Part shown: in pieces, positions 9,554 through 61,000 of the stretch
How positions within the stretch are numbered: the first letter of the stretch is position 1
Layout: every line of letters starts with the position of its first letter
Assembly (NCBI GenBank): GCA_947496715.1
Contig: CANMDT010000005.1
Span: 1-64,000 of the forward strand
Reading direction: 5' to 3'
DNA: 64,000 bases
From: Myxococcales bacterium
GTDB lineage: Bacteria; Myxococcota_A; Bradymonadia; REDH01
Position numbers and translations under genes: made by a program
The notes under the pieces: model-generated
What the model saw: only the letters and a program-made list of their open reading frames with translations
The model's database searches: none
What the model was told of the DNA's origin: nothing

Positions 9554-10839
9554 ACAGAGCCCGCTCTGAAGCCCTCTTCGAGGAGGCCAAAGGGCTCATT
9601 CCCGGCGGCGTGAACAGCCCTGTCCGCGCCTTCCGTGGCGTGGGCGGGACCCCATTCTTCGTGCGGCGCGCCTACGGTCCCTACATCGAAGACGAGGATG
9701 GCAACCGCTACCTCGACTTCATCGGCTCTTGGGGTCCGATGATCCTTGGCCACGCACGGCCTGAGGTGCTCGAGGCCATCCAGCGAACCGCCGCAGACGG
9801 CACCTCCTTCGGCTGCCCGACGGCGCGCGAGAGCGACATGGCCCGCCTCATCCGCGAGCTCGTCCCCTCCATGGAGATGGTCCGCATGGTGAGCTCGGGC
9901 ACCGAGGCCACGCTGTCGGCCATTCGCCTCGCCCGGGGCTTTACGGGCCGCCCCAAACTGCTCAAGTTCTCGGGCAACTACCACGGTCACGGCGACAGCC
10001 TGCTCGTCGATGCCGGCTCAGGCGTCGCCACGCTCGGCATCCCGGCCACGCCGGGCGTGCTCCCCGAGGTCGCGCTGCAGACGCTCACCGCGCCCTTCAA
10101 CGACCTCGATGCGACGGCCGAGCTGTTCCACCGGTTCGTCGGCGAGATCGCGGCAGTCATTGTCGAGCCAGTGGCCGGCAACATGGGCTGCATCCTCCCG
10201 CAGCCAGGCTTCCTCGAAGGGCTCCGCGCCCTCTGCACGCAGCATGGCACCATCCTCATCTTCGACGAGGTCATGACCGGCTTCCGCGTTGCCCTCGGCG
10301 GCGCCCAGGCCCACTACGGCGTCAGCCCGGACCTCACGACGCTCGGCAAGATCGTCGGTGGCGGGCTCCCGGCTGCAGCCTACGGCGGACGGGCCGACAT
10401 CATGGCCCGCATCGCACCAGCAGGCGACATCTACCAGGCTGGCACGCTCAGCGGGAACCCGCTGGCCATGGCTGCCGGCATCACCACGCTTGAGCTGCTG
10501 AAAGGCATGCCGAGCCTCTACGCCGACCTGTCGCGCCGGAGCGCCCACCTTGCCTCAGGCCTCGTCGAAAGGGCGCACGCGGCAGGCTTCCCCGCCACGG
10601 CCCAGTCGGTGGGCGGCATGTTCTCGATCTTCTTCACCAACGAACCCGTCACCGACTACGCTGGTGCGAAGCGGGCCGACGCAGCGCTCTTCGGCCGATT
10701 CTTCCACCAGATGCTGGACAGGGGCTTCTACCTCGCGCCGAGCGCCTTCGAGGCGGCCTTCATCGGCTCGCAGCACAGCGACGAACTCGTCGAAGAGACG
10801 CTGGCCGCCGCAGCGGCCGCCTTCACGGCTTTGCGTTGA
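9550..10839 (+). CDS. hemL: glutamate-1-semialdehyde 2,1-aminomutase
   Basis: [36 protein letters not shown] start overlaps the gyrA stop (GTGA). Confidence 0.95.
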
Positions 10840-10901
10840 CGCTCCCTGCCTCCTCTGGTAGCCGCGCAGCGAGTTCGGGAACCCGAAAAGGCCCGTGCTG
10901 A

Positions 10902-11198
10902 ATGGACCCGCAATCACCCCAGACGAACCCTCCTCCGCCGGAGCAATCCGCGAGCCAGAAGGCGCAACTTCGCCGGCTCGCTGCCCGAGCAACCGCCATC
11001 GGCATTCAGTTCTCCGTCTCCATCGGCCTCGGCTGGTGGCTCGGTCACTGGGCCGAGCAGCGGTGGGACTTCTCGCCTTGGGGAGGATTGGTAGGACTCC
11101 TCTTCGGCGCAGCGGCGGCCTTCCGCGACCTCTACCTGCTCGGCAAACTCTCCACCCAAGTCCATTCCCATGAACGACCAACTCCTCCAGAGGGTTGA
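10902..11198 (+). CDS. AtpZ/AtpI family F-type ATPase-associated protein
   Basis: Small two-TM protein (IGIQFSVSIGLGWWLGHWAEQRW...GGLVGLLFGAAAAFRDLY) directly upstream of atpB. Confidence 0.75.
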   Translation: MDPQSPQTNPPPPEQSASQKAQLRRLAARATAIGIQFSVSIGLGWWLGHWAEQRWDFSPWGGLVGLLFGAAAAFRDLYLLGKLSTQVHSHERPTPPEG

Positions 11199-40409: not shown

Positions 40410-40807
40410 CCCGGGGCAACGGAAAGAAGCCGAAGGATGACCCAGCCTCGCTGGGTACCTTCGCCGGCCTCTTCCAGCGCAATGGCGACGAGCTCGCCGC
40501 GCTCCGCGCGAAGCAGCGACCCGTCAACCTCAACGAGGCACCTCGTCGCGTGGAGCCGCTCCCCGCGCCGGCTCAGCCCGCGAAGGTCATCTCTGCCGAA
40601 GAGGCGATGCGGCTCGCCTTCGAAGAGGCCACAGATGCGCGCAGCCGCAAGTTCCTCAGCGAGGGGATGAAGCTCGGTGACCTCGCCGTCGAGGGCGACC
40701 GGCCCGCCGCCCAGAGAGGCCCCCAGCAGGCGCTCGGAGCCGACTACGACTTCGAACGCGAGGTCATGGGAACCACGCCGCTCCGCCCCAACAGGCCGAA
40801 GCGCTAG
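40406..40807 (+). CDS. hypothetical small soluble protein
   Basis: GTG start overlaps the upstream stop (GTGA); stop overlaps that of the convergent gene (CTAG); charged soluble sequence. Confidence 0.55.
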   Translation: MTRGNGKKPKDDPASLGTFAGLFQRNGDELAALRAKQRPVNLNEAPRRVEPLPAPAQPAKVISAEEAMRLAFEEATDARSRKFLSEGMKLGDLAVEGDRPAAQRGPQQALGADYDFEREVMGTTPLRPNRPKR

Positions 40808-43800
40808 AAGGTATAGCCCACGTTGAGGTGGAAACGCCCAAACGGCTCACCGATGCGCCTGCTCAGGTTGGTACCGTAGTCGAGCGCCACCGGGATCATG
40901 TTGGCAATCACCCACCGCAATCCCAGTCCCGCGGCGCTGCGGAGCTCACCCGCCGAGAGCGCGCTCGCCTCCCGCGCGAGCTCACCTGCATCCACAAAGG
41001 CCGCACCCTCCACGCCCAGCGCTGGCACCAGACCATAGCGCAGCTCTGCATTCGCCTGCACGAACACGTCGCCACCCGACGCGTCTCCCTCGACCGTCTT
41101 GATCGCACCCTCGCCAAACCCACGCACGCTGCCGGAGCCACCCATCAGGAACCGCTCCGACAGAGGCAGCGCGAGCGACCTACCCGCATCGAACCCGCTC
41201 AGAAGACCACCCGTTGCATAGCCAACACGCAGCTGCGTCGCCGCTACGACGCCCGGCGCAAGAGACCAGAAGCCAACCGTACGGGCAGTCAGTTTGGTGA
41301 AGGCGCTGGCATTGGAGAGCCCTACGAAGTCATCCGCCAGCTCCACACTCACCTCGGCCAGATAACCGGCCGTTGGGCGCAGCGGATGGTTCCGACGATC
41401 GTAGGTCACACGGGGCGTCGCAGAGAGAATGGCCGCCGACTCCACGGGCCGATCCGCCTCGCCCGACTGGTCGATGGATCGCGTGTTGCGAAACGAAATC
41501 CCGAACTCGTAGAAGAGCCCGCGCCGCGTATCCGACTCATCCCGCGCCCGTGCGCCCACACCCCACTCGTCCACCTGAGGCGCCGGCGCGAGGGTGAGGC
41601 GATCGCGGTCGCCATAGACCTCAACGAGCGCCTCCGTCGCCTCCCGAAACAGCCCGAACCCGTGGAACCGCGGGTCAAAATAGGAGAGGTTCGCCCCCAT
41701 CTTGACCTCACCTGAAGAGAGCCGGCTCAGCGAGCTCGGATCGATATCCAGATTGCCTGACGCACGGAACTCCTCCAGCCGGCCGAGGATGTTTCGGTGC
41801 CGGAACACAGGCTCTGCCGACAACACCAACAGCTCGCGACCCACGCCGCCGAACTGTAACTCTACACCCGCATTCACATCCACCGTCCAGGGGTGCGTCT
41901 CCTCCACCTCCAGCACCGTGTAGACAACCTCTGCGCCAGATGCGTCGGTGATGCTGAGCGTCGAAGCGCGAACAGAATCAAAGAGGCCCAGCGACCGGAG
42001 CCCCGCCTGCGTCCGGTAGATGGCCTCCATGGAGTAGGCTTCACCCTTCTCATACTTCAGCTCCGCCAACACCGCTTCGGACTGGCTCCGATGATTGCCC
42101 AGCAGCAGCGTCCCACCGAAACGGCTCAACCGTCCGCGGGTTACCTCGAAGTCCACCGCGATCGACGGCCCGAGCGGAGCGACACCGGTGGCGCAATCTG
42201 TACCCTCCAAAAGCAGCGGACAGACGAAGAACTCCTCCCGCTTTGACTTCGTTGTCTTGTCGCGGCAGGCTGAGAGCGGAAGGGTCGCCGGGTCGATGCG
42301 GCAGGCGGCGGCCAGCGGCTCTGCCTGACAGGCCACCGGGTCGCCCGCGGCATCGCGACAGACCCCTGCCACATCCGCACCAGCATAGCCCTGCTCCGTC
42401 CAAAACCGCTTCAAGGCCTCCTTCGCCCCAAGATAGGCCGACTCCGAATAGACGCCGCCCTCATCCAGCCCCAGTGCAACCGGGCTCCGGCGAGGCTCGC
42501 CATCCAAGACATATCGCACCCGGCTCGCCGTGCGGCGCACGCCAGCCTGCACTGCAAAGGTAACTTCTAGACCGCTACCGTCACGCAGCCGCCCAACCTT
42601 GTAACCGCTCACCACCGCCTGTGGGTATCCAGCATCTCGCATCCCCTGCTCGATGCGGAGCAGATCTGCCGCCACAGCGCCCCGAATCAGGTAGCCGCCA
42701 GAACCGAACGCCGTCAGAGGCCGCGTCTCAAGTTGAGCAACAATCCCCTCTCGAAGCTCCTCGGCAACCCCCTCACATGCAACCATGCGGATGGGCAGCC
42801 GCTCACCTTCGATGATCGCGAAGGTCACAACCTCCACGCCGGACTCCTCCACGACCTGAGCCTTCACCTCCGCGAAGGTGTAGCCGAGCGACTCATATCG
42901 CCGACGCACCTGCTCCGCCGCCTCCTCGAGCACAGCACCATCTACCAGGCCCGCACTGCCGAGCGCCGCCGTCGAGATCACCTCCGCATTGCTGATGGCC
43001 GTGTTGCCTGCCACCTCGATGCGCCACGGACCACCCTCTTCCACCTGCAGGAACAGGTCCATGACACTCTGCGCGACAATCGGATGCTCCTCGCTCCGCA
43101 CCACCCGCGCCCGCAGGTAACCGGCGCCGCGGTAGAGCGACTGAATCGCCTCGAGCGCACTCCGCAGATTCGCCTTCGTGTAGCCCCGCGTCAGCGACAT
43201 CTCGCCGAGCACCACATCGCGAATCCGCTCGAAGCCAATCGCGCTGTTGCCGCGCACCGCAAGCCGACGCAGCGTTACTTGGCGACCAAGCTCCGCTCGA
43301 ACAGTCACATCCACAAGCCGGCCAGGCCGTTCCTTCGGCTCAATCGTCACCTTCGAGCCAAAATAGCCTGTTGACTCAAAGTACTCCTCGATCGCGCGCC
43401 GCTGACGGCCCAACGTCTCCTCGTCGCCCGTCCATACGCTGCCCGACCGAAGAAACAGACGACGCTGAATCTCACTCGTCAGCGCACCGCCCGGCTCGAT
43501 GAAGACATCCGCGATCCGCTGACGCCCCACCAACTCAACCTCCACGCACAAGCCCGCTTCGCAGGCCCGCGCCGTCAGCGTCACCCGCTCAAACATCCCC
43601 GCACTCTCAAGCGCCTTCGATGCCCGCGACGACCGCTCTTCACTCCACGCCGCCCCTACCTCAATGCCCGCGAGCGCCAGCAGCGACGACCGCTGCTCCG
43701 CATCGTCGCACAGCGCAAGATCGCACCGGACCTCCACGCCTGCCACAACGCCAGCAGCCTCAACGCCAGCAGCCTCAACGCCAGCAGCCTCAACGCCAGC

Positions 43801-43878
43801 AGCAGCGTGCGCAACGCCCGCCAGCAGCAGCGCTCCCAGCAGCGCGACCATCTGTAGCAATGCTATCAGCCGGCTCAC
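40804..43878 (-). CDS. TamA/BamA-like Omp85 outer-membrane protein with multiple POTRA domains
   Basis: POTRA-like RLAVRGNSAIGFERIRDVV, C-terminal barrel with LMGGSGSVRGFGEG and terminal NVGYTF. Confidence 0.88.
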   Translation of the reverse strand: MSRLIALLQMVALLGALLLAGVAHAAAGVEAAGVEAAGVEAAGVVAGVEVRCDLALCDDAEQRSSLLALAGIEVGAAWSEERSSRASKALESAGMFERVTLTARACEAGLCVEVELVGRQRIADVFIEPGGALTSEIQRRLFLRSGSVWTGDEETLGRQRRAIEEYFESTGYFGSKVTIEPKERPGRLVDVTVRAELGRQVTLRRLAVRGNSAIGFERIRDVVLGEMSLTRGYTKANLRSALEAIQSLYRGAGYLRARVVRSEEHPIVAQSVMDLFLQVEEGGPWRIEVAGNTAISNAEVISTAALGSAGLVDGAVLEEAAEQVRRRYESLGYTFAEVKAQVVEESGVEVVTFAIIEGERLPIRMVACEGVAEELREGIVAQLETRPLTAFGSGGYLIRGAVAADLLRIEQGMRDAGYPQAVVSGYKVGRLRDGSGLEVTFAVQAGVRRTASRVRYVLDGEPRRSPVALGLDEGGVYSESAYLGAKEALKRFWTEQGYAGADVAGVCRDAAGDPVACQAEPLAAACRIDPATLPLSACRDKTTKSKREEFFVCPLLLEGTDCATGVAPLGPSIAVDFEVTRGRLSRFGGTLLLGNHRSQSEAVLAELKYEKGEAYSMEAIYRTQAGLRSLGLFDSVRASTLSITDASGAEVVYTVLEVEETHPWTVDVNAGVELQFGGVGRELLVLSAEPVFRHRNILGRLEEFRASGNLDIDPSSLSRLSSGEVKMGANLSYFDPRFHGFGLFREATEALVEVYGDRDRLTLAPAPQVDEWGVGARARDESDTRRGLFYEFGISFRNTRSIDQSGEADRPVESAAILSATPRVTYDRRNHPLRPTAGYLAEVSVELADDFVGLSNASAFTKLTARTVGFWSLAPGVVAATQLRVGYATGGLLSGFDAGRSLALPLSERFLMGGSGSVRGFGEGAIKTVEGDASGGDVFVQANAELRYGLVPALGVEGAAFVDAGELAREASALSAGELRSAAGLGLRWVIANMIPVALDYGTNLSRRIGEPFGRFHLNVGYTF
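43746..43803 (-). repeat. 15-bp tandem repeat (CAACGCCAGCAGCCT, 3 full copies plus a 13-bp partial)
   Basis: Read directly; encodes AGVEA AGVEA AGVEA at the start of the mature Omp85 protein. Confidence 0.95.
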
Positions 43879-46800
43879 GGACCGCCCCCGCTGAACCGGA
43901 CGCCCGCCTCTACGCTCCCCTCCGTCCCCACCGACTGCTCCCGAAGCTCAAGCGACAGCCAGTCCAGAAGGCGGATAATCCCCTGCGCATTCTGCTGCGT
44001 CCCCTCCAAGCCACCAAGCGCCGCGCTCAGCGACCAGATAAACTTCTCCGACGGCTGATCCTGGATCGAGATCGAAGCCGTCCCAACCGTTGACGGCGCC
44101 AGCGTGAAGTCGTCCAGACTGAAACTCTCCTCCACATTCCGCTCCACCATGTCGAGTACAGGACGGAGCACCACATCCAGCGTCGGAGCGCCAGCCCGCG
44201 CCGCCGTCAACGAATCAACCGTGCACCCCGTGATGAGCAGCGCCATCTGATCCCGCTGATCATAGGACGGCGTCGAACTCAGCACGTAGTCGAGCGCCGA
44301 TGGAGCCCGCCCCTGCACCCGAGCAGTGATCGCGATGGTCGGGATCGCAGTCACAGCGCTCACGCCCCGCGCTGTCGCATTCAGCAACGAAGCCGACGAC
44401 ACCGCACATGGCTTCACGGTCGTCCGCACCTGCGCGTCCACCTTCGGGGTCGGCAGCCCCGTGGAATCGCGCGCACCATCAAAGTTCAACGTCGCATCCA
44501 GCACCTCAAACGTCTTTCCGCGAAAGGTCAGGCTCGAACCGTCCAGCGACTTCACATCGCCCGTCATCACCATGGCACGCAGCGGACCTCGAACCTGCAC
44601 GTTCGTCTCCAGTTCCACCTGCAAATCAGCTCCCGCCACCCGTGACTGAACGTAGAGCCGATCGCGACCCCGCACCGCAAGGTCCGTTTCCAACGCCCCG
44701 ACCCACGCACTTCGCTGCCAGATCGGCTGCGTCCGCGCGCTCACAACCCGCGTTACCGCGCCCGGAATGTTCGCCGCGATAAGCTCGATGGGCTTGATGT
44801 ACCTCCCCTCGAGCAACTCTACATCACCTGCCACCCGCCAACCGCCAATCGAGCGGGCATCGGCGGCCGTCAGCTGCACCTTACCGCCCACCGTCACCGC
44901 AAACTCGCGCGGTATCCGGTAGGTCAGGTTATCGAAGGAGGCCTGCAACGCGAGCGCACCCTGGCGCGCGCCGAAGAGCTGATAACTGCCAGACACATCG
45001 GCGGTCCCGCCCCAAAGCACTGCATGCAGCGGTGAACCCTCCGGGATCGTGAGCATGCCGGACGCCACCTCCAAGCGGCTCGCCGTCACCGCAACATCCA
45101 CCTTCTCAAACGACGGCGTCACACGCCCTGAAACATTCGTGACCACGCCCCGCAGATCGGGATTCTCCAGCAGCCCGCTCACCTCCAGCGAAACATCCGC
45201 CCGCCCCGAAGACTGCTTCACCAGCGACGGCAAAAATCCAAGCAGCGCAAGGTCGACCACCCCCTTCGCCTCACCCCTCACCTCACGCCAATCCCGCAGA
45301 CTGCCGCCAAAAGTCAGCGTCTGCTCCTTTGCTCCGAGCTTGCCCGAAACCGTGACCGTGTCGAGCAGCAATCCGGCCTCCAAACCCCGGCTCCAGGTCA
45401 GCTGGATCGGCTCCGGATTTGTCACCGACTGGGTGCCAGAACGCACCTCCAGGGCATCCACGCGCACCGAACCACCCATCGTCGACAGATCGCTCAGGTC
45501 TGCCTGTAAATTCACCTCACCGCTCACCAGCGCATCAAACGCCGAATCAGCAAACTGCGGCAGATACCCAAGCGGCCTGATCCCTTCGAGGCGCGCCTCC
45601 AGCGACGCCATCCGTCCATCCAGAGGCACCTGCAGCGAAAACGGAACCTCACCCAGCGCCATCCCGTAGCCCGAAACAACGCCATCCAGCGTGTCGAACG
45701 TCATGCTCACACTGTGCAGGTCAAGTCCTTCAACCTTCAACTTCTCCACAACCAGAGAACCACCGACCTCCGGCGCAGCAAGTGTCCCGCCAATGACAGC
45801 AAACCCCCACGGCTCTCCCTCCACCTCAAGCCCTAGCCGCCTCAACACCGCAGAGGCCCCAAGCGTAGCCCCAGCCACCGAAAACCGGCCAGCAAGCCGG
45901 CCCTCTGGCATCGCTTCAACCGACGCCTCACCAGCCACCGTGCCGCCCAGCACCTCGGTCGAAAAGCCCCGCACCGCGCCGCCATCCAGACCACCCTCAA
46001 AACCGAACCGCGTCTGCCGCAAAGGCTCACCCAGCAGCGACATCTCCCGTGCAAATACCTCGCCTGAAGCCCGAGGATGGCGCACGGTACCCGTGATCGA
46101 GACCCTCCCATCCGCACCGCCAACAAGCTCTCTCCGTTTTAGCCAGAGCTCCGGTCGCATGCCGCGGAACTCAACCTCCAGCGCAACGGTTGGATCCGAT
46201 GCAATCTTCGCTCCCGAAAACAGCCCCACCGAGCCTCTGCCGTCCACCTCGCCACGCGAAGACCGGTAACGCATTTCCGAAAAACGAACCGCTCCTCCGT
46301 CGCGTCGGAACGAAGCGTCTGCCGTGAAGGAGCCCAGCAGCGGATGCTCGCGCAGACTCGACACTCGGCCCTTCACGTCGAACGTCGTCGGTGCGTTCCA
46401 AGGACCAGAGAATGACCCCGCGCCCCCCACCCTGAGGCCGGCTGCCAGCGGCTCCCGCTGGAGCAGCCGACCTGCGTCCAGCAGCTCCCCCTCAAACTTC
46501 ATCCCAAGCGATGACATGCGCTCTAGGTCCCAGTCTCCGGTCGCCCGCAGCGCTGTCGTCGCTCCCACAAGGTCGACCGCCCACGCCCGCTCCTTCGACC
46601 GGAGCGCTACCCAACCTCGCGCATCCACCGTCGCGGCAACCGCCCCCTCAAGCAGCGCATCCGGAAGAGGAGACCCCTCCGGCCACGACACCGCCACCTC
46701 CGTCGCATCCACCTCCACCATCGGCGGAAGCGCCTTCCGATCCTGCGGCAGTCCAGCGTGGGAGTATCCATGAAAACTCTTCACCGAAAGGTCGCCCCAC

Positions 46801-48197
46801 GCGTGAAGCCCTCCCTTCGATGCAACACAATCCTTCCCACCCACCGACAGTTGTGCGCTGCCCACCAAGTCAAGCACAGGCTCCTGCACATAGGGAAGCA
46901 AGAGACGACGCAGCCCGAGCCCCTGCACGCAACCCCGAACATCCCAGCGGCCATCCTCCGGCGTCCACCATCCCGCGAGCTCCGTCTGACCGCCCCAGGC
47001 ACGAACCACCGTCGGACCGCCAAGCGTCATCCGACCATGCGAAAACTTCATCTCCGACTCAAACGCTTCGATCGGATGACCCAAAACTACCAAGTTCTGC
47101 ATCGCCAAACGAAGACCGCCCTCGTAGAAACGCAACGAGCCATAACCCGACGCCCCGATCCGCTGGCCAGCACCCGCCTGGATCGCCCCGGGTAGCACAA
47201 ACCCGACAAACGGCGAATCGGCCCCCAGCGACACAGACAGCTCGCCCTCGTAGCGCAGCCCAGCCGACTCCGCCAAAGGCACCTTCGGCGTATCGCCCAG
47301 CACCTGAATCGCACCCGACAGCCGCGCCTCATCCGCACCCATCTCGACCTTCAACATGTCGAAGTTCATCCCCTCGTTGTACCAGCGGAAGTTCGTCGAA
47401 GTGACCCGCGTGATCGGGATGTCGAGCACACCCCGAAGCCCATCGCGACCCTTCGGCGCCGGACCAAAGGCCGCCGCCCACGGACGCGCGCGCCGCAGCG
47501 CGTTCCACTCCACCTCCTGCCAGGTCCCGTTACCAACACCCAGGCCAAGGCCCGCCTCTGTCAGCAGCACACGACCGCCCCGTATCTTCAGATAGGGCGT
47601 CGTCACCTCCACATTGCCATCCGAAATCACCCGGCCACGGTGCAGCGAGAGGTCGTCGAGTCGAATGAGCACGTCGCCAAACTGAAGCACCGCATCCAGC
47701 CCCTCCGCTCGAATCTCATCAAAAATCACGCGCGGAACCGGCCCCTCCCCCTTCTCGGAGAACGGTCCATTGAACGCCTCGTTCAGCCCCATCCGGCCGT
47801 CAGGCTCCGCATCCACCAGAACGCGACCGCCCGACACCTCGCACTGGTCAAATAACACGCGGCCCGTCAGCAACGCCAACGGCCGGTAGGTGCACACAAT
47901 CCCGTTGGCGTGAATCACCTCGCGACCGCGCAGATCCGTGAGCGTCGCATCGTATAACTCGAACCGGAATAGGTTGCCGCCAACCTCTAGCCGGCCTATC
48001 TCCAAGCCCCCGGGAATCAGGTCATCTACCCAACGCGTCACCCACAGGTTGCCTTGCGTCGATTGAAGCACCAGCAGCGCCGTCAGGTAGGCCGACACCA
48101 GCAGCATGACCGGCACAGACAGCAGGATGCCGAGGCGAAACACGCCCCGAACTCGGTGCCGCTCCAAGCGAAGCCGTTCTGCTCCGCCCTCGCTCAT
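43875..48197 (-). CDS. TamB-like translocation/assembly module protein
   Basis: About 1440 aa, N-terminal TM, repetitive beta-rich AsmA/TamB-like sequence; ATGA overlap with the downstream Omp85 gene. Confidence 0.85.
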   Translation of the reverse strand: MSEGGAERLRLERHRVRGVFRLGILLSVPVMLLVSAYLTALLVLQSTQGNLWVTRWVDDLIPGGLEIGRLEVGGNLFRFELYDATLTDLRGREVIHANGIVCTYRPLALLTGRVLFDQCEVSGGRVLVDAEPDGRMGLNEAFNGPFSEKGEGPVPRVIFDEIRAEGLDAVLQFGDVLIRLDDLSLHRGRVISDGNVEVTTPYLKIRGGRVLLTEAGLGLGVGNGTWQEVEWNALRRARPWAAAFGPAPKGRDGLRGVLDIPITRVTSTNFRWYNEGMNFDMLKVEMGADEARLSGAIQVLGDTPKVPLAESAGLRYEGELSVSLGADSPFVGFVLPGAIQAGAGQRIGASGYGSLRFYEGGLRLAMQNLVVLGHPIEAFESEMKFSHGRMTLGGPTVVRAWGGQTELAGWWTPEDGRWDVRGCVQGLGLRRLLLPYVQEPVLDLVGSAQLSVGGKDCVASKGGLHAWGDLSVKSFHGYSHAGLPQDRKALPPMVEVDATEVAVSWPEGSPLPDALLEGAVAATVDARGWVALRSKERAWAVDLVGATTALRATGDWDLERMSSLGMKFEGELLDAGRLLQREPLAAGLRVGGAGSFSGPWNAPTTFDVKGRVSSLREHPLLGSFTADASFRRDGGAVRFSEMRYRSSRGEVDGRGSVGLFSGAKIASDPTVALEVEFRGMRPELWLKRRELVGGADGRVSITGTVRHPRASGEVFAREMSLLGEPLRQTRFGFEGGLDGGAVRGFSTEVLGGTVAGEASVEAMPEGRLAGRFSVAGATLGASAVLRRLGLEVEGEPWGFAVIGGTLAAPEVGGSLVVEKLKVEGLDLHSVSMTFDTLDGVVSGYGMALGEVPFSLQVPLDGRMASLEARLEGIRPLGYLPQFADSAFDALVSGEVNLQADLSDLSTMGGSVRVDALEVRSGTQSVTNPEPIQLTWSRGLEAGLLLDTVTVSGKLGAKEQTLTFGGSLRDWREVRGEAKGVVDLALLGFLPSLVKQSSGRADVSLEVSGLLENPDLRGVVTNVSGRVTPSFEKVDVAVTASRLEVASGMLTIPEGSPLHAVLWGGTADVSGSYQLFGARQGALALQASFDNLTYRIPREFAVTVGGKVQLTAADARSIGGWRVAGDVELLEGRYIKPIELIAANIPGAVTRVVSARTQPIWQRSAWVGALETDLAVRGRDRLYVQSRVAGADLQVELETNVQVRGPLRAMVMTGDVKSLDGSSLTFRGKTFEVLDATLNFDGARDSTGLPTPKVDAQVRTTVKPCAVSSASLLNATARGVSAVTAIPTIAITARVQGRAPSALDYVLSSTPSYDQRDQMALLITGCTVDSLTAARAGAPTLDVVLRPVLDMVERNVEESFSLDDFTLAPSTVGTASISIQDQPSEKFIWSLSAALGGLEGTQQNAQGIIRLLDWLSLELREQSVGTEGSVEAGVRFSGGGP

Positions 48198-51041: not shown

Positions 51042-52679
51042 TTGAAGATCCTCGCAGCGCAACTCAATCCCCGAGTCGGAGACCTCGCCCGAAACACCGA
51101 CCGCATCCTCGCTGCGCTCGACATCGCGCGCGCCTCCGGCGTCGACCTCGTTGTCACCCCCGAACTCGCGCTCACAGGCTATCCGCCACGCGACCTCCTC
51201 GACCGGCCCAGACTCCACGAGGCGATCGACGAAGCACTCCTCACCCTCACCCGCGCTACGGTCGGGGGCCCAGCCCTCCTCGTCGGTCTTCCCCTTCCCC
51301 ACCAGACCAGACCTCACCAGTTGCAGAATGCCGCGCTCCTCATCGACGACGGCCGCATCCTCGCCAGACACAACAAACTCCTCCTCCCCTCCTACGATGT
51401 CTTCGATGAGGCCAGACACTTCCTGCCGGGAGAGGCTCTCACTACCGTCAGCTTCCGCGGCAGAACACTCATTCTCTCTATCTGCGAAGACCTCTGGGCC
51501 TGCGACGACCCCACGCTCAGAGCCCGCTACGGGCACGACCCGCTCGACGATGCCCAGCCCGCCGACCTCCTGATCAACCTCTCCGCAAGCCCCTTTGCCC
51601 GAGGAAAAATCGAGCGCCGGCTCTCCACCCTCACCACCGCCGCCGCCAAGCTCCAGACCCCTATCCTCTACCTCAACCAGGTAGGCGCAAACGACGAACT
51701 CATCTTCGACGGAAGCAGCCTCCTCATGCTCACCAACGGAACGGCCAAACAGCTCGTGCCAGCCTTCATCGAGGCCTCCAACACCTTCGACCTCGCCCGC
51801 CTCCACGAGCTCCCAGACCTCACCGCCGCAGACCCTGTCGACCTCACCCTGCAGGCCCTCCTCACCGGCATCCGAGACTACTTCCACAAGTCCGGATTCT
51901 CCCGCGCCCTCCTCGGACTCTCCGGCGGAATCGACTCCGCCCTCACCGCCGCACTCGCTGTCCAAGCGCTCGGACCGGGCAACGTCATCGGCCTGCTCAT
52001 GCCCAGCCAATTCTCTTCGCAAGGCTCCCTCGACGATGCCGCTGCGCTCGCTCAAAACCTCGGTATCCAAACCCACACCATCCCCATCGAGCCCGCCTTC
52101 CGCGCTCTACGGGAAACCCTACAACCCTCCCTCCAGAACCAGACCCACGGCCTCACCGAAGAGAACCTCCAAGCCCGCATCCGAGGCATCCTCCTCATGG
52201 CACACGCCAACCACCACGACGCCCTCCTGCTCACCACCGGCAACAAGTCCGAACTCGCCGTCGGCTACTGCACCCTCTATGGCGACATGTGCGGCGCACT
52301 CGCGCCCATCGCAGACCTCACAAAGGGGCGCGTCTGGCAACTCGCCCGACACCTCAACCGCGACGGAATCATCATCCCCGTCAACTCCATCGAAAAGCCG
52401 CCCAGCGCCGAGCTCCGCGACAACCAGACAGACCAAGACTCGCTCCCCCCCTATGAGCTCCTCGACCGCCTCGTCGAAGCCTATGTCGAACTCGACCGCT
52501 CGACCGCAGACCTCATCCGCGACGGCTTCGACCCCGATACCGTCGCCCGCGTCACACGCCTCATCGACCTCAGCGAGCACAAGCGCCGGCAAACCCCGCC
52601 CGTGCTCCGCGTCACCGAAAAAGCCTTCGGCACAGGACGCCGCTATCCCATCGCAGCTGCACCCGTGGCGAAGCTCTAG
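51042..52679 (+). CDS. nadE: glutamine-dependent NAD+ synthase
   Basis: N-terminal nitrilase domain; ALLGLSGGIDSALTAALA; LLTTGNKSELAVGYCTLYGDMCGALAPIADL; TTG start. Confidence 0.95.
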   Translation: MKILAAQLNPRVGDLARNTDRILAALDIARASGVDLVVTPELALTGYPPRDLLDRPRLHEAIDEALLTLTRATVGGPALLVGLPLPHQTRPHQLQNAALLIDDGRILARHNKLLLPSYDVFDEARHFLPGEALTTVSFRGRTLILSICEDLWACDDPTLRARYGHDPLDDAQPADLLINLSASPFARGKIERRLSTLTTAAAKLQTPILYLNQVGANDELIFDGSSLLMLTNGTAKQLVPAFIEASNTFDLARLHELPDLTAADPVDLTLQALLTGIRDYFHKSGFSRALLGLSGGIDSALTAALAVQALGPGNVIGLLMPSQFSSQGSLDDAAALAQNLGIQTHTIPIEPAFRALRETLQPSLQNQTHGLTEENLQARIRGILLMAHANHHDALLLTTGNKSELAVGYCTLYGDMCGALAPIADLTKGRVWQLARHLNRDGIIIPVNSIEKPPSAELRDNQTDQDSLPPYELLDRLVEAYVELDRSTADLIRDGFDPDTVARVTRLIDLSEHKRRQTPPVLRVTEKAFGTGRRYPIAAAPVAKL

Positions 52680-54883
52680 CCTCGCATACGCTGCACCCGC
52701 GACGACAGCAGCGTCATCCGCGACCGCCCCTGCACATCCTCTGCGGCCATCTTGAACGCCCGCGCCTGGCCAACCAACACCAGCAGCCGCCGTGCCCGCG
52801 TCACCGCCGTGTAGAGGATCGAACGGCTCAACATCCGGAAGTGATGGTTCGTCAGAACCAGCACCACCGCCTCGAACTCCGACCCCTGAGACTTGTGAAC
52901 CGAGATGGCATACGCCAGCTCCAGATCCCGAAGCGTCTCCCCGCCGTAGCCCACCTCCCGACCCTCAAAGTCCACCCGGATACGCTGCGCTCCCTCCTGC
53001 ACCTCCGTCACAACGCCGATGTCGCCGTTGAAGACCTCGAGGTCGTAATCATTCCGCGTCTGAATCACCCGGTCGCCCACATTCGGACGAACAGGGCCGC
53101 CATCAACACCGCTGCCGCCCGTCAACCGTGACTGCAGCGCCCGATTGAGCGCCTCCGAACCAGCCGCACCTCCATGCATCGGAACCAGCACCTGAATGTC
53201 GCGCGAGGGACGAAACCCGAACCGCTTCGGAATCCGCTCCGTCACCACCCGGCTAACCACATCCAACACCGCCTCCGCGTCTGGCGCCTCGATGAAAAAC
53301 ACATCGCTCGAAGGCGCGTTCTCCACCGCATCCCAGCGCCCCGAACGCACCGCATGCGCCACCTCCAAAATCCGAGACCCTTCGCTCTGCCGGAACACCT
53401 GCGTCAGCCGAGAAACAGCCACCGCTCCGGACCGGATCAACGCCCCAAGCACATCGCCAGGGCCTACAGAAGGAAGCTGCTCTTCATCTCCCACAAGCAC
53501 CAGCTGGCTCTCAGGACCCACCGCCTCCAACAAGGCAACCGCGAGCGCCGTGTCCAGCATGCTCGCCTCGTCCACCACCACCACAGAGGCCTCGATCGGC
53601 AGCCCGCGGCCGCGCAAAAACTTCCCCGTCCGCGGATCAAACTCCAGCAGTCGATGCACCGTCTTCGCCACGATGCCCGTCGCCTCCTGCATCCGCCGCG
53701 CCGCGCGACCCGTCGGCGCAGCCAGCGCAACCTGCCCGCCAGAACGCAGCACCTGCTCCGCAAAGGTCCGCACGATCGTCGTCTTGCCCGTACCCGGACC
53801 ACCCGTCAGCACCGCCAGTCCACTCCGCGAAATCCCTAGCAGCGCCGCCACCTGCGTCGCCGCCAGACGCACCTCTCGGCTGCCACCGCTGCCCGCCACC
53901 TCCTCCGCCCTGCTCGGCCCCCACACGCCCTGTCGGCCTGCCAGCGCAACAACCTGCTCCGCCAGCCGCTCCTCGAGCCCGCTCATCTCCTTCCGCTGGT
54001 ACCCAGACTGCCGCGCGCCATCAGCCAGCGTTGCCTCGCAGGCCTCCAACTCGCCCTCCTTCAACGCGGCCGCAATCGCGCTCGCCACCACAGACGCGCT
54101 CAAGCCAGCGACCTCCATCGCCAGCTGCTCTAACCACTCCGACCCCGCCGCCGTGTGCCCCTCATCCTCCGCCGCCAGCACCGCATGATAGACAGCCGCC
54201 AGCGCACGCCGCGGATCATCACCCACAATGCCAACCTGCGCCGCGATCTGATCCGCACGACGAAACCCTACTCCATGCACCACACGCGCAAGCAGGTAGG
54301 GATTCTCCTGCACCACACGCGCCGTCCCACTTCCGAAGGCCTTGTGAACCCGCACCGACAGCGCAGCCGTCAATCCAAGCCCCTGCAGGAACGACATCAC
54401 CTCGCGGTCCGAACGGCGAGCCTGCCACCGCTCCTTCACCTCCGCCAGACGCTTCGCACCAAAGCCGCGCAGCGTCAGGAGCCGCTCCGGCTCCTCATCC
54501 AGAACCTCAAAGGTCCGCGCTCCGAACGCAGCCACAATCTTCGCGGCCCACGCCTCCCCCACGCCCGGCAAAACCCCGGAGCCGAGAAAGGCGACCATCC
54601 CGTCGCGCTCCACCGGCAACACCACCTCGACCCGCTCCGCCTCCACCTGCAACTCTCCCGTACGGAACCGCTTCAGTCGCCCCGAAACGCGCACCCGTTC
54701 GCCCTCCTCGATGCTCCCTGCGCGACTGCGCACAACCCAACTCTCCTGCGTCTCGCTCAGCATCGAGAACACCGCGAACTGGCCGTCAGACGACCGGTAA
54801 CGAACACGACGAACCGTACCCGTCAGCGCAACGCTGCTCCCCTCCGTCAGCTTCGAAAACGGCAACCCTTCCGACACACACAC
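52676..54883 (-). CDS. recD2: RecD2-like ATP-dependent DNA helicase
   Basis: LTGGPGTGKTTIVRTF; VVDEASMLDTAL; AISVHKSQGSEFEAVVLVL; TAVTRARRLLVLVG. Confidence 0.93.
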   Translation of the reverse strand: MCVSEGLPFSKLTEGSSVALTGTVRRVRYRSSDGQFAVFSMLSETQESWVVRSRAGSIEEGERVRVSGRLKRFRTGELQVEAERVEVVLPVERDGMVAFLGSGVLPGVGEAWAAKIVAAFGARTFEVLDEEPERLLTLRGFGAKRLAEVKERWQARRSDREVMSFLQGLGLTAALSVRVHKAFGSGTARVVQENPYLLARVVHGVGFRRADQIAAQVGIVGDDPRRALAAVYHAVLAAEDEGHTAAGSEWLEQLAMEVAGLSASVVASAIAAALKEGELEACEATLADGARQSGYQRKEMSGLEERLAEQVVALAGRQGVWGPSRAEEVAGSGGSREVRLAATQVAALLGISRSGLAVLTGGPGTGKTTIVRTFAEQVLRSGGQVALAAPTGRAARRMQEATGIVAKTVHRLLEFDPRTGKFLRGRGLPIEASVVVVDEASMLDTALAVALLEAVGPESQLVLVGDEEQLPSVGPGDVLGALIRSGAVAVSRLTQVFRQSEGSRILEVAHAVRSGRWDAVENAPSSDVFFIEAPDAEAVLDVVSRVVTERIPKRFGFRPSRDIQVLVPMHGGAAGSEALNRALQSRLTGGSGVDGGPVRPNVGDRVIQTRNDYDLEVFNGDIGVVTEVQEGAQRIRVDFEGREVGYGGETLRDLELAYAISVHKSQGSEFEAVVLVLTNHHFRMLSRSILYTAVTRARRLLVLVGQARAFKMAAEDVQGRSRMTLLSSRVQRMRG

Positions 54884-54933: not shown

Positions 54934-55338
54934 TCAATCCGACTCCCCCGAACCGCCCGACGACTCCCGACGACCCACCACCCGTTGGTGTCGGTCCAGC
55001 GCCTGCCGCGCCAGCATCTCCTCCGCCTCCGCCAACGCAACCTCAAGCACCGCCGCCCGCTCCGCGCGGCGAGCCTCCTCCATCTTCGGCAACAGCGCTC
55101 TCACCGCAGCCAACCGCTCCGCGCGACCAAGCTCCAGCGATGAGACCGTCAGAGCCTCCGGACCCACACCCTCATCAAACCGCGCTGCCCGCGCTGCCGC
55201 ATCCCATCGCGACTCCGCCTCTATAAACGCAGCCTCGCAGGCCGCTTGCAGTGCCCCGGCCCGCGACAACCTCGCCGAGGCGTCAACCAACTGCGACTCC
55301 AGCCGCATCCCCTCCAGCGACAGCAGCGCCCGCCTCAC
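54934..55338 (-). CDS. FliJ/SctO-like coiled-coil protein
   Basis: Small, helical, Ala/Glu/Arg-rich; directly downstream of and overlapping the FliI/SctN-like ATPase gene. Confidence 0.5.
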   Translation of the reverse strand: MRRALLSLEGMRLESQLVDASARLSRAGALQAACEAAFIEAESRWDAAARAARFDEGVGPEALTVSSLELGRAERLAAVRALLPKMEEARRAERAAVLEVALAEAEEMLARQALDRHQRVVGRRESSGGSGESD

Positions 55339-56642
55339 CGCCGCAGCCGTGAAGCAATGCTGCGAAGCTCAGACCACGACGCATCGCCCGATCCACCCGT
55401 CAGCGCCCGGCGTAGCGACTCCTCCTCCGCGATGGCCGCATCCAAGCCCGGACGACTCCCCGACCGATAGTAGCCAAGCTCCACCGCATCACGATGCTGC
55501 TCCAGAAGGCCCAGCCCTCCTCGGCACACTCGGCCAACCTCGAGCTCGCCAGCCGTAAGCAAGTCATCCGACAGCCGACTCATGCTCGCCACCCAATCCA
55601 CCGCCGGAAACTGGCCTCGATCCGCCAGACGACGACGCAGCACCAACTGAACATCCACCAGGCTTCGAACCTCCTCCGCCACCACACCCTGCTCCTGCTC
55701 CGACGACGCAAGCACCGAGTATAGCCCAGTCACGGAACCCTCCAAACCGGCTCCGGCCCGCTCCAGCAGCCGCGCCATCGACGAACCCATCGTCACGGGA
55801 AAACCCGACGCACCCAGTGGCTCTCCCCGCACCTGCGCAACCTCCCGAAGCGCCCGCGCATAGCGCGTCAGTGAGTCCAGCAGGAGTAGGCATGACCGCC
55901 CGCGACCGCGCCACGAATCAGCCAGCTCCGACGCCAGCTCCGCCGCGGCGACACGCTCCGATGCGGGCGCCTCCGAACGAGCTACAACCACCGTGACCCG
56001 ACCTGCCAGCGGCCCGCCGAACACCTCCTCCAACAGGGAGGATGCCTCGCGCGCACGCTCGCCCACCAGACCAATCACCACCACATCCTCCACCATCCGC
56101 TCACGCAGCTGCCGTAGCAGATAGGTCTTGCCCGAGCCCGCCTCCCCAATGATTGCAACGCGCGCGCCCCGACCGATAGGCGCCAGCGCATCGATGCCCG
56201 CAACCCCCGTCTCGAACCGATCCGCCACGCCAACAGACCGGCGCGAAAACAGGCCCGACGGAGCCCCTGACTCACGAGCCACCACAGCTCCTCCATCGAC
56301 CGGCTCGCCTAGCCCGTTCAGCACGCGGCCGAGCGCCTCCTCCACCCGCAAGCGCCCTCCTGCCACGCTACGAACCCGGACCCGAGCGCCCACGCCAACT
56401 CCCTCCGAACTCCCCCACGGAAGCAAACGCGCCCGCTCACCTTCGAGCCCGACCACCTCTGCCAGGACCGACCCTTCGCCAACCTCAATCTCGCACAGCT
56501 GCCCCACCACCGCATCGGCCACACAGGCCTCAATCAGCCCTCCCCCGACCGATGCCACGCGACCCGAAATCAGCTCCGAACGACCGGAACGGAGCCGCGC
56601 ATCCAACAACTTCACCCACGCAGCGCGGCTAGCTGAGGTCAT
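55335..56642 (-). CDS. FliI/SctN-family type III secretion ATPase
   Basis: APIGRGARVAIIGEAGSGKTYLLRQL; LLLLDSLTRYARALREVAQVRGEPLGASGFPVTMGSSMARLLERAG; start trimmed to MTSASRAAW. Confidence 0.9.
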   Translation of the reverse strand: MTSASRAAWVKLLDARLRSGRSELISGRVASVGGGLIEACVADAVVGQLCEIEVGEGSVLAEVVGLEGERARLLPWGSSEGVGVGARVRVRSVAGGRLRVEEALGRVLNGLGEPVDGGAVVARESGAPSGLFSRRSVGVADRFETGVAGIDALAPIGRGARVAIIGEAGSGKTYLLRQLRERMVEDVVVIGLVGERAREASSLLEEVFGGPLAGRVTVVVARSEAPASERVAAAELASELADSWRGRGRSCLLLLDSLTRYARALREVAQVRGEPLGASGFPVTMGSSMARLLERAGAGLEGSVTGLYSVLASSEQEQGVVAEEVRSLVDVQLVLRRRLADRGQFPAVDWVASMSRLSDDLLTAGELEVGRVCRGGLGLLEQHRDAVELGYYRSGSRPGLDAAIAEEESLRRALTGGSGDASWSELRSIASRLRR

Positions 56643-57228
56643 CAGGGCAACCCTCAAGTAATCCCTGTAACAGATGCAGCTGACTCCGCAGACGAGCGTC
56701 GCTCTGACCGCGAGCAAACTCGACCACCAGATCGGCTCCGCGCAAACTCCCATCCACACGCACCGCCATCCCCTCAGCAGACTCACCCAAGCGCTTCCGA
56801 ACCGAGGCCACAATCCCCGGCGCAGCACGAACAACAAGCTCTCGCTCGCCTGCCAAACCCTCCAGAGCGCGCGACAACAGAACATCGAGGACCGCCGCCT
56901 CCCGCTCCGCCAGACGCCCCAGCATCGCCTCTGCGATCAGCATCGCCAGCATCGCTGTCCGACGTGCCACCTCCTTCGGACGACCCGCCAGTGCATCCAG
57001 CATCCGCTCCATCTCATGACGCGACGAAGAAAGCGCCTCCGCCCGCGCAGACGCGACTGCAGTCACCAACTCCTCCTCCAAACGCGACCGACGCGCCTCC
57101 AGCTGCGAGAGCTCCGCGGCAAGCCCCTTCGCAGCAGCCTCTTCCTCCTGGCTCACCCAGCCCACCACGCCCGATGCCAGCAACCAGCCCGAGCCATCCT
57201 CAACCCAACCCCAGCCCCAGCCCGTCAT
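56629..57228 (-). CDS. FliH/SctL-like ATPase stator
   Basis: VDGSLRGADLVVEFARGQSDARLRSQLHLLQGLLEG matches the FliH/SctL C-terminal signature; adjacent to the ATPase. Confidence 0.72.
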   Translation of the reverse strand: MTGWGWGWVEDGSGWLLASGVVGWVSQEEEAAAKGLAAELSQLEARRSRLEEELVTAVASARAEALSSSRHEMERMLDALAGRPKEVARRTAMLAMLIAEAMLGRLAEREAAVLDVLLSRALEGLAGERELVVRAAPGIVASVRKRLGESAEGMAVRVDGSLRGADLVVEFARGQSDARLRSQLHLLQGLLEGCPDDLS

Positions 57229-57923
57229 TGTGAACCTCGACGACCCGTAGCAGCCAGAAGCCCAGCAAAAATAGACACAAGCAACAGTAGCGATACGAAC
57301 GACCACCGAAGCAGACCCGCCTGACCCGCTTCCACCCGAAACGGCCCCACCTTAGCCCACCTCACCCCAGGCGACAGACGGGGAACCGTCATCCCCACAC
57401 GCTCGATACGCGCGACCTCGCTCAGACCCTCCATCCCCCGAACCGCACGCTCAACCTGCGTCCAGTCCGCCGAACCCTCACGCATCACCAACGTCGCCGT
57501 CGCCACCTCGCCAGAACCCTCCGCGCGGAGCTCAACCCAAGCATCCTCAACCTGTGGAAGCCCGCGAAGCAACGCGGCGGCACGCGCTCCCGCCTCGTGC
57601 CGCTCCAGACGCGACCGATCCGCTGCCGATGGCCACATCCCGATCTCGGGCTTCGGAACCGCCAACCGCTGCCGCGGCAGCCCCAACTCCGAAACAGCGC
57701 CGCGCGCTCCCGCGCCATCCCAACGCGGCACCACTACCTCGCGACCGCGGCCGCAACGCTCCGCAGACGCATCAAACCCCGCGCGACGGAGCTGCCACGC
57801 CGACTCATCCGCCTCTTCCTGGCCAACGCAGCCCGTCACCGAAACCCGACATCCGGCAACCGAGAGACCAAGCAGCACCAGCGCCACCAACAATCCCCCT
57901 ACCCGCGACCGAACTGTCATCAC
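57225..57923 (-). CDS. SctJ-like lipoprotein (type III secretion inner ring)
   Basis: Lipobox SVAGC; EADESAWQLRRAGFDA and ELGLPRQRLAVPKP RBM1-like; LRGLPQVEDAWVELR RBM2-like; C-terminal TM. Confidence 0.72.
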   Translation of the reverse strand: MMTVRSRVGGLLVALVLLGLSVAGCRVSVTGCVGQEEADESAWQLRRAGFDASAERCGRGREVVVPRWDGAGARGAVSELGLPRQRLAVPKPEIGMWPSAADRSRLERHEAGARAAALLRGLPQVEDAWVELRAEGSGEVATATLVMREGSADWTQVERAVRGMEGLSEVARIERVGMTVPRLSPGVRWAKVGPFRVEAGQAGLLRWSFVSLLLLVSIFAGLLAATGRRGSQ

Positions 57924-57927
57924 CAGC

Positions 57928-58614
57928 CTACTCCTCCAACCTCGACGATGCGCTCGCCATCAGCTCCTGCAGACGAAGCAGCGCACGCGCGTGCGCCCGG
58001 CAGGCCCAACTCCTGCTCCGACCAACCCGATCTGCGTGCTCCGCCAGACTCATCGATGAAAAATAGCAGTCCGCCAGAAGCTCACGCTCGTCCTCCGGCA
58101 GGTGGCCCAACATGCGCCTCACCAAGGCCTTCGACATCTTCTGCGCCACAACCTGCTCCGGCGTTGCCGTGTAGCCGCTCAGCTCCTCCGACTCCTCCAA
58201 CTCCACCGTCGCAGACTCCATCACCTCACTCGCCGTCGTCGCGCACACCATCGCATGAACCAAATAGTCCACGTCCGACGCAGACTCCGCAACATCCGAC
58301 AGCCCCTCAAGTGCATCACCCATCGCCCGAACGCGGCGAATCGCGGCAGCCTGAGACCGCTTCAGGCCCTGCTGCGACAGAGTCTCATCCAGAATCGCTC
58401 CACGGATCCGATAGTATGCATAGGTACCGAACGACGTCGATGCCGTCGTGTCGAACCGACGAGCCGCCTCCAGCAGCCCCAGCATCCCCATCTGCTCCAG
58501 CTCTTCGAGCGCAAACTGCAACCGAAGCGTCGTCTTCAGACGGTACGCGACATGGCGCACCAGCCAACCATGCTGGGCTACCAAATCGCCCTGCTTTTGC
58601 GACTCGCCTTCCAC
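57928..58614 (-). CDS. FliA-type (sigma-28-like) RNA polymerase sigma factor
   Basis: LEELEQMGMLGLLEAARRFDTTASTSFGTYAYYRIRGAILDETLSQQGLKRS; region 4 SLAEHADRVGRSRSWACRAHARALLRL. Confidence 0.85.
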   Translation of the reverse strand: MEGESQKQGDLVAQHGWLVRHVAYRLKTTLRLQFALEELEQMGMLGLLEAARRFDTTASTSFGTYAYYRIRGAILDETLSQQGLKRSQAAAIRRVRAMGDALEGLSDVAESASDVDYLVHAMVCATTASEVMESATVELEESEELSGYTATPEQVVAQKMSKALVRRMLGHLPEDERELLADCYFSSMSLAEHADRVGRSRSWACRAHARALLRLQELMASASSRLEE

Positions 58615-58685: not shown

Positions 58686-59480
58686 ATGACCTCAAGCGAC
58701 CTCTCCACCACAAGCCACGCCACGCACTCAGCACGCCGTTGGGCCCGCGCGCTCTACCTCGCCGCCTTCGATGAGCAGCCCGACGAGGTCACAACCTCCG
58801 CGCGCACACCTATCCACCCCGCCAACTTCCAGTTCCTCGCCTACCCGGCCGTCGATCAAGAACCCGTCGCCATCGCCGTCGCAGGGCTCATCCTGAACCA
58901 CGACGACGTCCGTCACCTCCTCCCCTTCGCCCACCGATTCGAAAACAATCTCAAACTCGCCACAGCGATTCTCCCGCCAACACACGAGGACAGCCAACCC
59001 CTCCTCGACGAACTCCCCAAACCCGCCGCAGCGGCTACCGCCAGAGGGCCCGCCGGAGCCATCGTTGTCGTCGAATACGAGCCGCAGCGATTTCACCACC
59101 ACCTCCCCTGGCTCCCGGGCGACAGGTTTCACCTCACACTCCCTATACCTCCCCACACAGGCAGCGGCCTGCTGCTGCCAGAACTACCCATCGCTGCCAC
59201 CCTCACAAACCTCGATGACCAGCGCGACGTCCCCATCATCCTCTCTCCCACGCGCGACGCACTCACCGCCAAACTCCTCCCCGAGCTACATTCCACAACC
59301 TCATCGCACGCCATCTGCTGGTCTGGAACCGTTCTCGCCGTCCGACCTCCGCTCGGCCTCGAACTCAAGCTTCAAGAAACGGGAACACTGCCGGCGCTCC
59401 CCTTCTCCACCGCCAACTGGCTCACCGATGGCAACAACTTTGCCATCCGCATCACCACCAACCCCCCACCAGACCGTTAA
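58686..59480 (+). CDS. hypothetical protein, divergent from the sigma/T3SS-like operon
   Basis: 264-aa ORF with coherent codon use; no family recognised. Confidence 0.6.
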   Translation: MTSSDLSTTSHATHSARRWARALYLAAFDEQPDEVTTSARTPIHPANFQFLAYPAVDQEPVAIAVAGLILNHDDVRHLLPFAHRFENNLKLATAILPPTHEDSQPLLDELPKPAAAATARGPAGAIVVVEYEPQRFHHHLPWLPGDRFHLTLPIPPHTGSGLLLPELPIAATLTNLDDQRDVPIILSPTRDALTAKLLPELHSTTSSHAICWSGTVLAVRPPLGLELKLQETGTLPALPFSTANWLTDGNNFAIRITTNPPPDR

Positions 59481-59533: not shown

Positions 59534-59556
59534 ACTCCATCCCCTACCGATGGAGT
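59534..59556 (+). repeat. perfect 7-bp hairpin overlapping the putative start codon of the following CDS
   Basis: ACTCCAT-CCCCTACCG-ATGGAGT. Confidence 0.8.
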
Positions 59557-60029
59557 CCCTCATGCCAGCCCACAACAACATCCTCCTTCACCTCACCCTG
59601 CAACCCGCCCCAGGTAGCAGCCTACCCGCACACGACATCGGGCCCGAACTCGCAGCCTATGTTCGAGCGCTCCTCGACAACCTCGATGCCTCCCCAATTG
59701 TCATCGGCGCCACCAGCACCGAACTCACCATCGTCGCGCCGCTCCCCCTCTGCATGAGCACGGCCCACCTCGTCTTCTGCATCAAGCGGGGAACCGAGCG
59801 CTGGCTCACCCAACAGTGCACCTCGCAACGAGTCTTCCTCTGGGCCCCTGGCTTTCGCGCGCTCTCTGTCGACCGAGCCTCGCTCGCCGCCCTCATTCGA
59901 GGGCTCCAGCATCGCGCAACCTACTGCGAACCACCGAGCTTTGATGCACAAGCCTCGGGGCCGCAGGCCCACACTGACTTCGACCACCCGCCCCTATCGA
60001 AGTCATCCGTACAGCCAGCCACCAACTAG
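59550..60029 (+). CDS. IS200/RAYT (Y1 transposase)-like protein lacking recognisable catalytic residues
   Basis: ELAAYVRALLDNLDASPIVIGATSTELTIVAPLPLCMSTAHLVFCIKRGTERWL...FLWAPGFRALSVDRASLAALIRGLQHRATYCEPPSFDA aligns by eye with the IS200-like pattern ...GG..DHVHLL..LP...s.a.LV..iK..Ss.W...F.WQ.GYgAFSVs... Confidence 0.6.
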   Translation: MESLMPAHNNILLHLTLQPAPGSSLPAHDIGPELAAYVRALLDNLDASPIVIGATSTELTIVAPLPLCMSTAHLVFCIKRGTERWLTQQCTSQRVFLWAPGFRALSVDRASLAALIRGLQHRATYCEPPSFDAQASGPQAHTDFDHPPLSKSSVQPATN

Positions 60030-60511: not shown

Positions 60512-60636
60512 CGCCTACACCGCAGACGCCCGCGTCTTGGCCGCGCACTCCCAATGCCGCAACAAGCAAACCAGGACGCATCGCGCACGCAACGCTGCAG
60601 TCACGCCGCGCTGCGCTACCACTTCGCCCCACGCCT
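60512..60636. repeat. repeat B copy 2
   Basis: 125 bp at offset 130; differs from copy 1 at about 3 positions (TCACCGAGCG vs TCACGCCGCG). Confidence 0.95.
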
Positions 60637-61000
60637 ACGGTCCGCCACTCCCAGCCACGCCCTCGTCTAAACCCAGCAACGCCGCCTCCAGCGCCCCGCC
60701 AAGCTCGTAGCGCTCCCACGCCTCAAACGACATCTCCAACCGGAGTGGCAACCGCCCGGGCGCTGATACCTCAACCGTGTGCAGGCCGGCGCCTACGCCA
60801 ACCACACCCTCACCACAACGCCCAACGGCCAAACCGGAGACCTTCACAGTGGCCCCCGCAGGCGCGCAAGACAAAGCAAGAGACGCGCTCCCCGACGACG
60901 CCCAGCATCCGCCAAAAACAGAAAGAAGCGCGACCAGCAAGACCAGCCGCGCCCCATCCAATCGCAAAGTACTAGGCCTCAGCAGAGGCGCTCGCGTCAT
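60635..61000 (-). CDS. small lipoprotein with PEGA-like domain
   Basis: Lipobox [44 protein letters not shown]. Confidence 0.6.

Follow-up and report, generated by a model that had tools for sequence, protein, structure and literature searches.

The 'Myxo' NF-T3SS lacks secretin and needle and branches at the base of the NF-T3SS (PMC3459982), and the type III secretion system of M. xanthus (T3SS*) acts together with the Kil Tad pilus (PMC12075869). A needleless T3SS* was also proposed in Bradymonas (PMC11509652), where T3SS inner-membrane genes rise during predation and carry widely spaced locus tags (PMC7460792). Positions interpolated from these tags are no more than suggestive and were given no weight. 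Among the closest known systems is also the dispersed T3SS of Bradymonas sediminis and Persicimonas caeni (PMC7460792, PMC7188933, PMC11509652).

Here, a five-gene operon was analysed within a 64,000-nucleotide stretch of contig CANMDT010000005.1 (the window). The operon is one locus of a dispersed needleless T3SS, which is further reduced in this bacterial family.

Genomes and operon organization

The host is a freshwater relative of predatory bacteria, and its class is presumably Bradymonadia. The window's own genome (G000, assembly 93% complete) was compared with three others of its genus (G001 to G003), with two genomes from two further genera of the same family (G004, G005) and with other genomes of the class. 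All six family genomes are drafts of 77–97% completeness, for which any single absence is weak and joint absence carries the argument.

The operon consists of five minus-strand ORFs (54934-58614) in the order sigma-sctJ-sctL-sctN-sctO, with the sigma gene first. From J to O, successive ORFs overlap by 4, 14 and 4 nt, and sigma and J are separated by a gap of 4 nt. All coordinates, overlaps and the gap of the original prediction, which had described a tightly packed minus-strand operon, were reproduced. The order sigma-J-L-N-O-recD2 recurs in G001, and a G002 contig carries J-L-N-O-recD2 and ends inside J. G004 and G005 contain a diverged version of the operon order with additional genes interposed. 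Pairwise dN/dS was 0.09-0.52 for the five operon genes alone and 0.05-0.52 across every operon and gate gene tested, and internal stops were absent. As a coding control, the antisense frame of N was used, which contains stops and gave a dN/dS ratio >3. Because the order is kept in G001, G002, G004 and G005, dN/dS is low and internal stops are absent, the five ORFs are confirmed as genuine coding genes and not chance frames.

Downstream, the operon adjoins a recD2 helicase gene on the minus strand (52676..54883, TIGR01448 1.5e-202), as had been predicted. recD2 adjoins the operon also in G001, G002, G004, G005, G048 and G055; it is a conserved neighbour and probably not a component of the export system. 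A transposase-like gene had been expected on the other flank, where none is present. Instead, two plus-strand ORFs, a PEGA lipoprotein gene and two genes which we take from their sequence to be rplQ and rpoA lie upstream. The first ORF (58686..59480, plus strand) diverges from the sigma gene, shares its intergenic region and is coding in the plus frame (dN/dS 0.23). No Pfam or NCBIfam family was found for its product, which is possibly a member of the system. It was also considered as the missing SctQ and rejected: SctQ was not detectable by comparison, and the structure model was uninformative (pLDDT 35). The second ORF (59550..60029, plus strand) gave a dN/dS of 0.55 from few changes and has no Pfam or NCBIfam match.

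PEGA-like genes were seen near T3SS genes at three places: in the window (60635-61000), in G054 (L162_8, 10427-11149), adjoining sctN, and in G055 (L201_5, 7030-7416), adjoining sctQ. Elsewhere in the window (40804-48197), a gene for an Omp85/POTRA protein adjoins a TamB-like gene, which is likely a TamA-TamB pair.

Identity of the operon products

The five products had been predicted as a FliA-type sigma factor, an SctJ rather than a FliF protein, and SctL-, SctN- and SctO-like proteins. The first four assignments were borne out; for the fifth, support came from gene position.

The sigma gene (57928..58614, minus strand) heads the operon and encodes a FliA/WhiG-type protein with Sigma70_r2 and r4 domains. 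It covers the full TIGR02479 model at 3e-28, yet below the model cut-off. The gene occupies the same position in G001, G004 and G005 (dN/dS 0.09) and, among the class genomes compared, stands at the operon head in the window's family only. Inspection by eye of the sequences preceding sigma, sctR and sctV showed no FliA consensus common to the three. The operon or the substrates are probably under the control of this sigma factor.

For sctJ (57225..57923, minus strand), a lipobox, two ring-building domains and a C-terminal hydrophobic segment (residues 209-227) are consistent with an inner-membrane ring lipoprotein. Window J by itself yielded nothing of note in Pfam or NCBIfam. It matched the class SctJ set by hhalign at 5e-13; this set comprised family and class relatives from L115, L116, L154-L157, L162-L164 and L171, and the class J proteins in turn match TIGR02544 SctJ (down to 2.6e-41) and PF01514. 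An AlphaFold model of window J was of low confidence (two-sequence input, pLDDT 59). With this model, the best PDB matches by Foldseek were PrgK (1.3e-5) and EscJ (9e-4), followed by other SctJ proteins and FliF. sctJ is constrained (dN/dS 0.13). The sctL product (56629..57228, minus strand; dN/dS 0.11-0.13) is a FliH/SctL-type stator. Its profile matches alone are weak (PF02108, E 0.003; TIGR02499, E 0.008), and the match to the class SctL set by hhalign was 1.2e-9. In control comparisons of window J and L with the wrong sets, no match was obtained.

The sctN product (55335..56642, minus strand) is an export ATPase of the FliI/YscN family (TIGR02546 9e-92, below its cut-off; PF00006 1.8e-58). 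By alignment of SctN/FliI residues, it retains Walker A, the catalytic Glu motif, Walker B and the Arg, and sctN dN/dS was 0.13-0.15. In an ATPase tree built without M. xanthus, the window's family formed one clade (99/99) outside the clade of flagellar FliI and canonical SctN (99/98). The flagellar clade (98/97) contains true flagellar FliI from the same class. Monophyly of the class-wide dispersed ATPases was not shown by this tree (support 18/50); a tree joining them with the window's family was not rejected (p 0.205). The branch of the window's genus is very long, at 2.8 changes per site, and could reflect a functional shift. A lone SctN-like ATPase with 43% identity was also seen in a groundwater Deltaproteobacteria MAG (L058), where no T3SS gene was recognised up to 10 kb away.

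The last ORF (54934..55338, minus strand) is placed at the central-stalk position by synteny only and is presumably sctO; G004 and G005 likewise have an ORF separating sctN from recD2. Its protein gave no profile match and no hhalign match to the relatives' set. In G010, a class genome, the ORF in the slot after sctN matches YscO-like proteins at 4e-8. sctO is the least constrained operon gene (dN/dS 0.39-0.52).

The export gate

The original prediction found no SctRSTUV, which holds for the window and not for the genome. An sctR-S-T-U operon is located on contig C36 of G000 (L141, 10772-13027, minus strand). The suggestion of a reduced or dispersed T3SS-like machine was sustained by this arrangement, and that of an isolated gateless subcomplex was not. 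FliP/SctR was found in G000, G001, G002 and G003. The R-S-T-U set is present in G000, G001 and G003, and also in G002, where the sctU end is cut by the contig. R matches YscR models and S matches FliQ models; U of the window's genome matched full-length SctU of the family at 3.5e-9 (hhalign). The third product, for which profile recognition was absent in the window's genus, is presumably SctT from its position in the operon and its five hydrophobic segments. In the alignment, SctU of G000 and G003 ends before the autocleavage domain, and the G001 ORF stops at the same point. SctU of G004 and G005 retains this domain as NPTH.

SctV (PF00771) was found in G003, G004 and G005, where sctV is a lone gene divergent from thrS, and was not found in G000, G001 or G002. 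The essential gene thrS is likewise absent from the G000 and G001 assemblies, and in G002 it is truncated by the end of a contig; an assembly gap is therefore the simplest reading of the sctV absence. In the window's genome, sctV probably lies beside thrS, in a part missing from the assembly. Within the genus, SctV was seen in G003 only; this protein has 604 aa, compared with 693-702 aa in G004, G005 and G010, and the gaps fall in its cytoplasmic part. The SctV membrane domain is conserved.

A FliO-like gene, a flagellar trait beside an SctJ-type system, precedes sctR in G004 (L147:667-1137, PF04347 5.8e-6) and, as a weak match, in G005 (L146:11390-11857). G004 carries two similar, non-identical fliO-fliP starts of the gate operon (L145 and L147, contigs C82 and C133), perhaps from a strain mixture. 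In G003, contigs C487 and C631 hold a fragment of the FlhA C-terminus, adjoined by a FliA-like sigma gene and MotA/B-like genes, as well as a 572-aa frame with FliF; these are a real flagellum or contamination.

Missing components and class-wide arrangement

No SctC (TIGR02516) was found over the cut-off in 16 genomes, which gave weaker secretin matches only. In the six family genomes, no match was obtained for the needle (PF09392), SpoA/SctQ (PF01052) or RcpC (PF16976, one Tad marker). RcpC was found in five class genomes. PF01052 was present in all 14 of the class genomes tested outside the family, and in the seven stretches that were read its gene lies apart from other T3SS genes. In the operon of the window's genus, sigma and J stand too close for an sctI gene between them, and so do J and L for an sctK gene. 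SctQ, SctI and SctK may be too diverged to detect, encoded elsewhere or located in assembly gaps. A complete canonical flagellar or T3SS locus elsewhere, which would make the operon a plain duplicate, was not encountered: by profile, G000 has no second FliI/SctN, no FlhA and no FliF/SctJ match (PF01514), the last with the qualification that J itself is too diverged to score.

Across the class, sctI-J-K-L-N-O form a single operon; sctV and sctQ lie at distant sites, and sctRSTU are also encoded elsewhere. Among the features of needleless NF-T3SS, an ATPase outside the flagellar clade, an SctJ lipoprotein and the lack of SctC and needle were found, and the SctQ sorting platform was not (PF01052, six family genomes). 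Of the gate, R and S were recognised by profile, U by hhalign and T by position; V was seen in relatives only.

Proposed function and alternative explanations

SctJ-L-N-O are read here as the ring-base, stator, ATPase and stalk module of a needleless, scattered T3SS for ATPase-driven inner-membrane export (probability roughly 0.78). Stator L would hold ATPase N and stalk O would couple it, and the ATPase would unfold substrates and pass them to the export gate. The gate would consist of SctR-S-T, the truncated SctU and SctV, and would be encircled by lipoprotein J. Since SctC-type secretin, needle and detectable SctQ are all absent, export would end in the periplasm or use another outer-membrane channel. 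Export across the inner membrane only, the direction of which we infer, is most likely. Loss of the SctU autocleavage domain would fit a machine that no longer switches from needle to effector substrates. By analogy with relatives, the system may have a role in predation.

Stepwise loss of SctQ, SctI, SctK, the SctU autocleavage domain and part of SctV, together with the long ATPase branch, could also be expected of a decaying, functionless relic of an ancestral T3SS. This is quite improbable and is largely refuted by the dN/dS range in all operon and gate genes tested, the lack of internal stops and the intact ATPase active site. Judged from these substitution ratios, this is a reduced machine maintained by purifying selection, and decay is disfavoured. 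An ATPase-ring subcomplex working alone would agree with the window, in which there is no gate gene; it is scarcely tenable and, provided that the two loci act together, is refuted at the genome level by sctR-S-T-U on contig C36, under purifying selection.

The operon might also be part of a flagellum with dispersed genes. The FliA-like sigma and the FliO-like gene that G004 carries in its R-S-T-U operon point that way. So does G003, which has FliF and, next to genes for a FliA-like sigma factor and MotA/B-like proteins, an FlhA fragment of flagellar appearance. However, J is an SctJ by fold, FliM/FliN (PF01052) and FliF (PF01514) are unmatched by profile in G000, and the ATPase falls outside the flagellar clade, which holds the true FliI of the same class; this explanation is very improbable. 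Alternatively, ring, ATPase and gate may have been repurposed for something other than effector secretion, e.g. as an envelope-sensing complex gating the adjacent FliA-type sigma. The flagellar gate, which releases sigma-28 through FlgM export, is a model for such a role. The sigma gene at the operon head in the window's family only, and the absence of outer parts and switch domain, are in line with repurposing, but the conserved ATPase catalytic residues and SctV membrane domain suggest that transport is still needed, and no anti-sigma gene was identified. Repurposing is regarded as unlikely.

Within the preferred reading of an inner-membrane export machine, a stricter form can be proposed tentatively, with somewhat less than an even chance of being correct: that SctJ, L, N, O, R, S, T and V plus a switchless SctU, with their own sigma gene, form an inner-membrane exporter that has no secretin or needle and works without a sorting-platform C-ring or a Tad partner. 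If true, this would rank with the smallest T3SS cores in nature and would show that a T3SS* can act without the Kil pilus. The C-ring protein, the SctU switch domain and the Tad marker were lost in this lineage while purifying selection retained the core, which suggests that these parts are dispensable. The lineage would then offer a natural minimal set, bearing on what the needleless T3SS of predatory Myxococcota export and on their Tad dependence. It would also be relevant to whether such systems are, as has been proposed, extant relatives of a flagellum-to-injectisome intermediate.

Comparison with known systems

With the flagellar export apparatus, the system shares the FliA-type sigma, the FliO-like gene of G004 and a homologous ATPase and gate. 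It differs in that FliF, FliM and FliN were not found by profile in the window's genome and in the position of the ATPase outside the flagellar clade. With canonical injectisomes (e.g. Nitratidesulfovibrio), it shares the J-K-L-N-O gene order and the homology of SctJ and SctN. In contrast to these, SctC and SctF were not found, the genes are unclustered, the ATPase forms a separate lineage, and SctU lacks the NPTH domain (G000, G001, G003).

As in the bradymonads, its presumed class-mates, the operon is probably accompanied by sctV at a separate site. SctI, a K-like gene and SctQ are retained in bradymonads, as is RcpC in most of them. By contrast, the window's family has no detectable SctQ or RcpC, and the operon of the genus has neither sctI nor sctK. 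The system also resembles M. xanthus T3SS* and the Myxo NF-T3SS, of the same broad bacterial group: export apparatus, ATPase and a small inner-ring protein are present, SctC and needle are undetected, and conservation is vertical. Unlike M. xanthus T3SS*, the system of the window is scattered and not clustered, a sigma gene heads its operon and SctU lacks the autocleavage domain. Furthermore, for M. xanthus, SctQ is reported and T3SS* is recruited by the Kil Tad pilus, whereas in the window's family SctQ is undetected, sctI is absent from the operon and the Tad marker was not found. Overall, the system matches the needleless T3SS*, in a dispersed, sigma-headed form that in this family lacks detectable SctQ.
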